A DNA stretch of 64,000 nt, taken from positions 1,922,001 through 1,986,000 of the forward strand of contig NZ_CP039734.2 in assembly GCF_011769985.2 (NCBI RefSeq). Reading direction: 5' to 3'. Origin of the DNA: Sulfurospirillum diekertiae. GTDB taxonomy: Bacteria > Campylobacterota > Campylobacteria > Campylobacterales > Sulfurospirillaceae. A program made the position numbers and the translations under genes. Below, one piece after another: positions 41,212-44,306 of this stretch (position 1 is its first letter; each line of letters opens with the position of its first letter). The notes under the pieces were generated by a model that ran no database searches, was not told the origin of the DNA, and saw nothing but the letters and a program-made list of their open reading frames with translations.

Positions 41212-42441
41212 GTGAGCACTTACGTGGGTAGACAACCTATTTTTGATAAAGAAGGTGTGTGCTTTGGGTATGAGCTCTTGTACCGTTCATGTGATCAGAA
41301 TAATATAGCGACGTTTCAAGATAGCGCTAAAGCAACAGCACGTGTAATGGTCAACATGGTTCACAATATTGGTCTTGCGCCTATTATTGGACAAAAAGTA
41401 GGTTATATCAATGTTGATGAGACGATGCTCTTTAGTGATGCTATTTTACTTCTCCCTAAAGAACATTTTGGCTTTGAGATTCTAGAACATACACAAGTCT
41501 CCCCAGCCTTATTTGAACGTGTGAAGCATTTAAATAGCCTTGGGTATCGTTTTTCGCTAGATGATTTTGATTGCAGCGATGCCATGATCAACGCTTATAC
41601 GCCACTTTTCCCTTATATTGAAATCATCAAAGTCGATATCCAAGCGATTGGTCTTCCCAATCTTAAAGCCTCTATTGATAAACTTAAAACACACATTCCT
41701 CTCCTTGCAGAAAAAATAGAAACGCATGAAGAGTATGAAGCCTGCCGTAAACTTAACTTTCATTTGTTTCAAGGGTATTTTTTTGAGAAACCTGTTATTT
41801 TAAGCGGCAAACAAATTGAGCCGCTAACCGCCAATGCCTTAAGATTGATGAACTGTATTCAAGGGAATAATGATGTTGCTTACATCACAGAAAAGTTTGA
41901 AACATGTCCTGATCTTGTGTATAACCTTTTACGTCATGTCAATTCGGGTGCTTATCATTTCAAAAATAAAATTACATCCATTAAACAGATGATCTTACTT
42001 TTAGGACCTCAAAAAATTCTTTCATGGTTAGGACTTTTTTTATACGGTGCACCCCAAAATCACCCCTTTGGAATAGAAATTTTCAACAATGCAAAATTTA
42101 GAGCTAAAGCGATGGAAGAACTTGCCCTTACCTGTAAAAAAGCCGAACTTGCAAACAAAGCTTTTTTAACGGGGAGTCTTTCATTAATAGATACGTATTT
42201 GAATATTTCCATGCTAGAATTTCTCAATCATGTCAATCTCGATGATGAAATTAAAACAGCCCTTCTCTTTCATGAGGGATTTTTAGGTGAACTACTGTTT
42301 ATCGCAACAGAAATGAACCATTCAAGTGATACGGATGCGACTATTTCTGCACTTAAACATTACCCTTGTTTTAAGACAGATCAATTGTATAATGCTTGCA
42401 CCAATGCAACTCTTTTTGTCGAAAATACAGAACACGAATAA
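41212..42441 (+). CDS. EAL-HDOD signalling protein
   Basis: The 409-aa protein starts at GTG 41212 with AGGAG six bases ahead. Residues ~1-200 are an EAL-like domain (VGRQPIFDKEGVCFGYELLYR). The catalytic signature is altered (YELLYR in place of EAL plus cofactors), so it may bind rather than cleave c-di-GMP. An HDOD domain follows (~200-405; NLLRHVNSGAYHF). Such YuxH-type proteins regulate motility and adaptation. A palindrome-flanked promoter precedes it. Confidence 0.88.
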   Translation: MSTYVGRQPIFDKEGVCFGYELLYRSCDQNNIATFQDSAKATARVMVNMVHNIGLAPIIGQKVGYINVDETMLFSDAILLLPKEHFGFEILEHTQVSPALFERVKHLNSLGYRFSLDDFDCSDAMINAYTPLFPYIEIIKVDIQAIGLPNLKASIDKLKTHIPLLAEKIETHEEYEACRKLNFHLFQGYFFEKPVILSGKQIEPLTANALRLMNCIQGNNDVAYITEKFETCPDLVYNLLRHVNSGAYHFKNKITSIKQMILLLGPQKILSWLGLFLYGAPQNHPFGIEIFNNAKFRAKAMEELALTCKKAELANKAFLTGSLSLIDTYLNISMLEFLNHVNLDDEIKTALLFHEGFLGELLFIATEMNHSSDTDATISALKHYPCFKTDQLYNACTNATLFVENTEHE

Positions 42442-42457
42442 AACATAAGGAATGAAT

Positions 42458-42703
42458 ATGAATATTGTCATCTACTACTGTACACGCTGAGGATATATGC
42501 CAAGAGCTTTCCGTGTGAAAGATGAAATTTTAAGTGCCTATCCAAATGCCAAAACAACCCTTTCACCAAAAATAGGCGGATTTTTCGATGTTGTCGTTGA
42601 CGACATTGTTATTTTTTCCAAAACGGAAAAAATTGGTACACCCATAGAGCGCTTTCCTGAAGTGGGAGAGATAGTTTCACTGCTTCAAAAAGCAGGTTAT
42701 TAG
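42458..42703 (+). CDS. Rdx-family (SelW-like) selenoprotein with CxxU
   Basis: From ATG 42458 (AAGGA six bases ahead) the frame reads MNIVIYYCTR then TGA (42488-42490), then GYMPRAFRVKDEILSAYP and on to TAG 42703. With TGA read as selenocysteine, the 81-aa protein has a Cys8-x-x-Sec11 motif at the start of a thioredoxin-like fold, exactly where Rdx/SelW proteins carry CxxU or CxxC. A hairpin suited to a SECIS follows. Likely a small thiol oxidoreductase. Annotation pipelines would call only residues 14-81 from ATG 42497. Confidence 0.85.
42488..42521 (+). promoter_or_regulatory. UGA Sec codon and bacterial SECIS hairpin
   Basis: CTTTC (42507-42511) pairs perfectly with GAAAG (42517-42521) around the loop CGTGT. 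The loop lies about 22 nt after the TGA and has a G-U pair of bases, as in the SelB-binding loop of bacterial SECIS elements. The stem is short (5 bp), as seen by eye; a longer lower stem is possible but not obvious. Confidence 0.65.
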
Positions 42704-42746
42704 CCTTTACATGTAAAGGCATTGATACTTTTTTTAAAGGTTTTAA

Positions 42747-44306
42747 ATGGGCTATATTACGACCCTTTTTGTTCGATTTGCCTATTTTTTAGATGCATCC
42801 ATACGCTACCATCGTGCAAAAGAATTTTGCAGGACACTTTTGGAGTCACAACACTCTAAACTCAAATTTTACTTTGATATTTTCATGGTTTTACTGGTTG
42901 TTTTCAGTGTTCTTTTCCTTCTGTATGAGGTAAAACATCCTGATGGACTACCCTATTTAGATGCTTTTGTACAATTTTCTTTAATTGTTTTTGTCATCGA
43001 ATATCTTCTACGCTTTTGGATTTATTCAGATAGTCATAAGCTCTTTTTAGAGGCATATGATCATGCAACAAACAATGACATCCCTTTCTCTCTAAGACGT
43101 GCACTTTTTATCATCATTAAGAAAAAACTAGACTATATTTTTTCACCTCTTGCGATTATTGATCTTTTAGCGATTTTACCAAGCTATCGCCCTCTTCGTT
43201 TTTTAAGAATTTTTCTTCTTTTTAGAATTTTTAAGCTCTTTCGTTATGCCAGAAGTATGAAAACCTTTACGGAGATCATTACGGAAAAAAAGTTTGAACT
43301 CTTTACCTTAGCGATCTTTGCAAGCTTTGTTATCTTTACGGGAAGCTCTGCTATTTATATTTTTGAGACACATCAAAATCCAAAAATAAACACCCTTTTT
43401 GATGCTATTTATTGGGCAATCGTAACCATGGGTACGGTTGGATATGGTGACATTGTTCCCGTCACGACAGAAGGTATGGTTGTTTCCATGCTTCTTATTA
43501 TCTTTGGTGTTGCGATTATTGCGTTTTTGACGTCTATTATCGTTTCATCGTTTCAAAGTAAGCTTATTGAGCTGAAAGAGAGCCGTACCTTTGCCGATGT
43601 CGATAAATTGGAAAACTACATTGTTATCTGCGGATACGGACGTGTGGGAGAAGTGGTCGCCAAAATGCTCCACGAAGATGGCTACAATCTAGTCATTATC
43701 GATAATGATCCATCCAAAATTAAATTGGCACAACAAAGAGGACTTATTGGCATTGTTGCAGATGCCTCTAAAAGTAAAATACTCGGTGCTCTAGGTGTTG
43801 GTAAGCGGGCAGCACAAATCATTTGCGCAACCAATAGCGATGAACTGAATGTCTTTATCACCCTCACCGCGCGAAGCCTCAGTAAACAGATTATTATCAT
43901 CGCACGCGTCATTAAAAATACCCATAAGAAGAAATACTTTTTAGCAGGTGCCAATTACGCTTTTGGTGCCGATGAAACCATAGGATTAATGGGGGCGCAA
44001 TATATTGATCAACCGATCTCTTATGCAGCCCTTGAAGAGATGCTCACAGAGAATACTGGCGTTATTTTTGATATCATCTCCATTCATGAACATTCCTGCT
44101 TTACCAATAAAACGATTGAAGTACTCTCACTTCATGAAAAAAGGCTACTTCTTTTTGGTATTTTACGTAAAGACGAGAGCGTCCCTTTTCATTTTAATCC
44201 ATCGAACGATTTTGTACTTAAAGATCATGACATGCTCATCATCATGGGGAGAAAACACCACATCAATATCCTACGCAAACTCAATGATAAAAGGAGTGTT
44301 CTATGA
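42747..44306 (+). CDS. Voltage-sensor-type K+ channel with RCK domain
   Basis: The 519-aa protein has six predicted transmembrane helices. An S4-like helix carries regularly spaced arginines (RPLRFLRIFLLFRIFKLFR), and the pore has the K+ filter TMGTVGYGDIVPVT with G232-Y-G-D235. A cytoplasmic TrkA-N/RCK domain (VICGYGRVGEVVAKML) and a TrkA-C region follow. It would be a ligand-gated potassium channel. AAAGG precedes ATG 42747. Its stop overlaps the start of the soluble TrkA-like gene by four bases. Confidence 0.9.
   Translation: MGYITTLFVRFAYFLDASIRYHRAKEFCRTLLESQHSKLKFYFDIFMVLLVVFSVLFLLYEVKHPDGLPYLDAFVQFSLIVFVIEYLLRFWIYSDSHKLFLEAYDHATNNDIPFSLRRALFIIIKKKLDYIFSPLAIIDLLAILPSYRPLRFLRIFLLFRIFKLFRYARSMKTFTEIITEKKFELFTLAIFASFVIFTGSSAIYIFETHQNPKINTLFDAIYWAIVTMGTVGYGDIVPVTTEGMVVSMLLIIFGVAIIAFLTSIIVSSFQSKLIELKESRTFADVDKLENYIVICGYGRVGEVVAKMLHEDGYNLVIIDNDPSKIKLAQQRGLIGIVADASKSKILGALGVGKRAAQIICATNSDELNVFITLTARSLSKQIIIIARVIKNTHKKKYFLAGANYAFGADETIGLMGAQYIDQPISYAALEEMLTENTGVIFDIISIHEHSCFTNKTIEVLSLHEKRLLLFGILRKDESVPFHFNPSNDFVLKDHDMLIIMGRKHHINILRKLNDKRSVL

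Follow-up and report, generated by a model that had tools for sequence, protein, structure and literature searches.

An in-frame TGA almost certainly read as selenocysteine in a SelW-like gene of Sulfurospirillum diekertiae

The locus at 42458-42703 of the window (the whole 64,000-nucleotide stretch of S. diekertiae DNA analysed here) raises the question of whether a TGA triplet within an otherwise open frame acts as a stop codon or is read as selenocysteine (Sec). If the TGA is read as Sec, translation from the ATG to the TAG yields MNIVIYYCTRUGYMPRAFRVKDEILSAYPNAKTTLSPKIGGFFDVVVDDIVIFSKTEKIGTPIERFPEVGEIVSLLQKAGY. A preliminary description had claimed that the TGA follows MNIVIYYCTR and completes a CxxU motif, that a ribosome-binding site precedes the ATG, and that the usual gene call starts at 42497 and loses the active site. 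All three statements are borne out by the translation, by the AAGGA motif upstream of the ATG, and by the list of open reading frames (ORFs) in the standard code, which contains only the 68-residue frame for this region (Table 1). Most relatives carry AAGGA or AGGA at a similar spacing from the start; a second in-frame ATG at 42452, which directly abuts the AAGGA, is the less likely start. The gene is present as a single copy in the genome. The best explanation of the locus, with a probability of about 0.97, is a functional gene that encodes an Rdx-family selenoprotein of the SelW-like kind, with UGA 42488 read as Sec.

Table 1. Coordinates of the features at the SelW-like locus, given as positions of the window
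Feature	Position	Strand	Remarks
Upstream neighbour, EAL/HDOD-type protein	41212-42441		name read from sequence
Ribosome-binding site AAGGA	42447-42451	+	6 nt 5' of ATG 42458
SelW-like (Rdx) selenoprotein gene	42458-42703	+	81 residues, Sec is residue 11, TAG stop
CxxU redox motif Cys8-Thr-Arg-Sec11	42479-42490	+	Sec codon TGA 42488-42490
68-residue ORF of the standard gene call	42497-42703	+	without active site; rejected as a separate gene
SECIS hairpin	42507-42521	+	stem CTTTC (42507-42511)/GAAAG (42517-42521), loop CGTGT (42512-42516), invariant G 42513
Palindromic hairpin CCTTTACATGTAAAGG	42703-42719	+	from folding; immediately 3' of the stop codon, T-rich DNA follows
Downstream neighbour, voltage-gated-type potassium channel with TrkA domain	42747-44306		name read from sequence

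The proposal that the frame encodes a full Rdx/SelW-like protein is supported by profile searches and by structure prediction. The Pfam family Rdx (PF10262) matches the product over its full length and across the TGA (65.1 bits, cut-off 22.6, E = 6.9e-18), and the score for TIGR02174, which covers SelT, SelW and SelH, lies above the cut-off as well (47.8 bits, cut-off 34.2). The equivalog NF041051 (SelTWH_Campy) is matched with 81.8 bits, which is below its cut-off of 88; the protein is therefore placed in the broader subfamily TIGR02174 and counts as no more than a relative of the equivalog. Cys8 and Sec11 are invariant in 27 aligned proteins. An AlphaFold2 model, which was built with 27 natural sequences as input and reached a pLDDT of 94, places the CxxU motif after the strand formed by residues 2 to 8, and the best 21 Foldseek matches in the PDB are all SelW-related chains (TM 0.78-0.83). 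The product is thus predicted to have a thioredoxin-like fold of the SelW type, with the Cys8-Sec11 pair at the active loop. The predicted fold fits the solved members of the Rdx family, the closest of which are SelW-like and carry Cys where the S. diekertiae protein has Sec; the motif of these bacterial proteins is CxxC instead of CxxU. The protein most likely functions as a small thiol/selenol oxidoreductase.

A match to the family was found in 34 of the 249 genomes of the order, and each of these 34 has a single in-frame TGA as its only internal stop. The TGA is found at each of the 40 motif-containing loci, and the translated loci have CxxU throughout. Homologues had been expected to carry either Sec or Cys at this site: the 34 genomes all have the TGA, with not a single Cys codon among them, and Cys occupies the position in the solved members. 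The closest named record is that of S. diekertiae JPD-1 (98% identical), and members belonging to the order's other families are only 33-45% identical. The gene co-occurs with selB, which was found in 33 of the 34 genomes with the SelW gene vs. 67 of the 215 genomes without it (Fisher p = 5e-14, with relatedness ignored). The Sulfurospirillum MAG UBA2217 (G172; locus L048, the same gene as L016) has an intact SelW gene including TGA and SECIS; in this 99% complete assembly, no selA was found, no selB, selD or tRNA-Sec scored above the cut-off, and no TGA-containing formate dehydrogenase was detected. This is likely due to a missing stretch of the assembly spanning the Sec island, the alternative being a recent loss. 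Two further genomes of the genus (G052 and G194) encode the full Sec machinery, and no SelW-like gene was detected in either of them; the gene has been lost patchily within the genus.

Synonymous and amino-acid changes were measured against ten relatives of the Sulfurospirillum group. Across the nine codons that precede the TGA, pS ranges from 0.69 to 1.25, which is near saturation, and pN from 0.05 to 0.38. Few amino acids change either upstream or downstream of the TGA, and downstream of it pN is also well below pS; the frame is therefore protein-coding on either side. Over the hairpin, synonymous change drops to 0-0.44 (mostly about 0.15), with the reduced stretch covering 42491-42523. Downstream of the hairpin it is back at 0.44-0.83, except in the closest of the ten relatives, for which it is 0.18. 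Low synonymous change over the hairpin with high values around it indicates that an RNA structure constrains these codons.

The hairpin itself, which had been described as a 5-bp stem with a CGTGT loop at the right distance from the TGA, is indeed present, and its loop starts 24 nt from the T of the TGA. It has a G within the first two loop positions downstream of the UGA. Taken singly, the hairpin lies within chance expectation and is not significant: of the 1326 TGA trinucleotides that the + strand of the window contains, 303 (23%) have a comparable 5-bp hairpin, the stretch 42485-42540 has a fold energy no better than that of shuffled sequences (z = +1.37), and single-sequence folding gives the SECIS hairpin as the centroid and a different structure as the minimum-energy one. 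A scan of the locus against Rfam returned sub-threshold chance matches only. The significance of the hairpin derives from covariation in the relatives rather than from lone-sequence statistics. All 33 distinct sequences keep five of five pairs, with the spacing from the TGA unchanged, and have G at loop position two without exception. In the alignment of 26 distinct rows, 100% of the cells are paired and 29 cells are changed on both sides, giving a covariation score of 0.659 compared with 0.191 ± 0.036 for shuffled alignments (none of 500 shuffles reached the observed score); when the register is slid, pairing drops to 46-66%. A second strong, terminator-like hairpin with 10 pairs and a T-run was observed within the SelW coding region at 42586-42608. 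It is absent from most relatives and was dismissed as a functional feature of the family.

The machinery for Sec insertion, the absence of which had been named as one of two findings that would refute a selenoprotein, is encoded in the genome (2.78 Mb, 100% complete). A genome search identified selA (520 bits), selB (304 bits) and selD (360 bits), each above its curated cut-off, and a tRNA-Sec with the anticodon TCA (51.7 bits, also above the cut-off). Two formate dehydrogenase alpha genes (L060 at C1:2415822 and L062 at C1:2443784) have an in-frame TGA within the motif VARIUHS, each followed by its own SECIS-like hairpin. These two genes, selA, selB, selD and tRNA-Sec all lie within about 66 kb (2,388-2,454 kb), and the SelW gene is found at a distance from this region, at 1,964 kb. 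The fdhA and SelW hairpins both have a short stem and a small loop with G in the first two positions, and both are located about 21-24 nt after the UGA. The fdhA stems are TCGCC/GGCGA and TCGCA/TGCGA compared with CTTTC/GAAAG in the SelW gene, and the fdhA loops start at +21 (or +22) compared with +24.

Three other readings of the TGA have to be weighed against Sec insertion. It might simply terminate an upstream frame that has nothing to do with the gene, and the real gene would be the ORF starting at ATG 42497, which is the sole ORF of the region in the standard code. However, this ATG is absent outside Sulfurospirillum, where Leu, Arg, Lys or Tyr codons are found instead, the codons ahead of the TGA evolve as an in-frame protein, and the shorter product would be left without the opening strand of the fold and without its CxxU site, which makes this reading exceedingly improbable. 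A pseudogene that arose from a CxxC Rdx gene by a nonsense mutation would account for the Cys of the solved members and for a TGA that is only one base away from TGC or TGT; it is nevertheless next to impossible in view of the unbroken retention of the TGA as the only stop, the constraint on the codons after it, the covarying SECIS and a conservation that spans several families.

The UGA could also be decoded as another amino acid or serve as a selenium-responsive regulatory stop, and the identity of the inserted residue is beyond comparative data. This reading is very improbable given a covarying SECIS with an invariant loop G, the co-occurrence with selB and the Cys of the non-Sec members. 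Thus, codon 11 is almost certainly read as Sec. According to the proposed mechanism, ribosomes would start at 42458, and the SECIS at its fixed distance from UGA 42488 would recruit SelB with Sec-tRNA-Sec; Sec would be inserted at the UGA, translation would continue to 42703, and the product would most likely cycle through a selenenylsulfide. Comparison or prediction shows a frame that codes for protein up to the TGA and beyond it, the covarying SECIS, the Sec machinery and the fold.

Most relatives within the genus preserve the order upstream neighbour, SelW gene and channel gene. A shared neighbourhood is no evidence of shared function, and a dedicated role of the Sulfurospirillum SelW tied to its conserved neighbours, such as the control of potassium flux in response to redox state or selenium, is very unlikely. 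The 60 nt from the stop codon fold with -10.7 kcal/mol, and most Sulfurospirillum relatives have hairpins of other sequences at the same place after the stop; the hairpin at 42703-42719 may be the transcript end or a terminator.

SelW selenoproteins of Epsilonproteobacteria have been described, including genes that were wholly missed by annotation, as has their SECIS of 5 or 6 bp with an invariant G (PMC4607533). Using Ribo-seq and proteomics, it has been shown that C. jejuni SelW (CJnc60) is translated in full length past the UGA (PMC11955535), and a 2026 review gives the family as CxxU, PF10262 (PMC13188914). The S. diekertiae gene shares with the epsilonproteobacterial SelW genes, SelTWH_Campy and C. 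jejuni SelW the position of CxxU, a length of about 80 residues, a SECIS with 5-6 pairs a short distance downstream of the UGA and the annotation miss; its divergence from members of other families and its score below the Campylobacter cut-off set it apart from them. A search of the literature on Sulfurospirillum and selenoproteins found no title or abstract about the S. diekertiae gene. The preliminary description had called the gene overlooked, which holds for the standard list with its short ORF only, but the novelty is weaker, since the family and the annotation miss have been published (PMC4607533, PMC11955535). The S. diekertiae gene is real, an ordinary member of the known SelW family and of low surprise. 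Its gene model is corrected to 81 residues with Sec, compared with 68 without the active site, and a clean Sulfurospirillum set is added to the epsilonproteobacterial SelW family, the RNA covariation of which is strong enough to train SECIS models.
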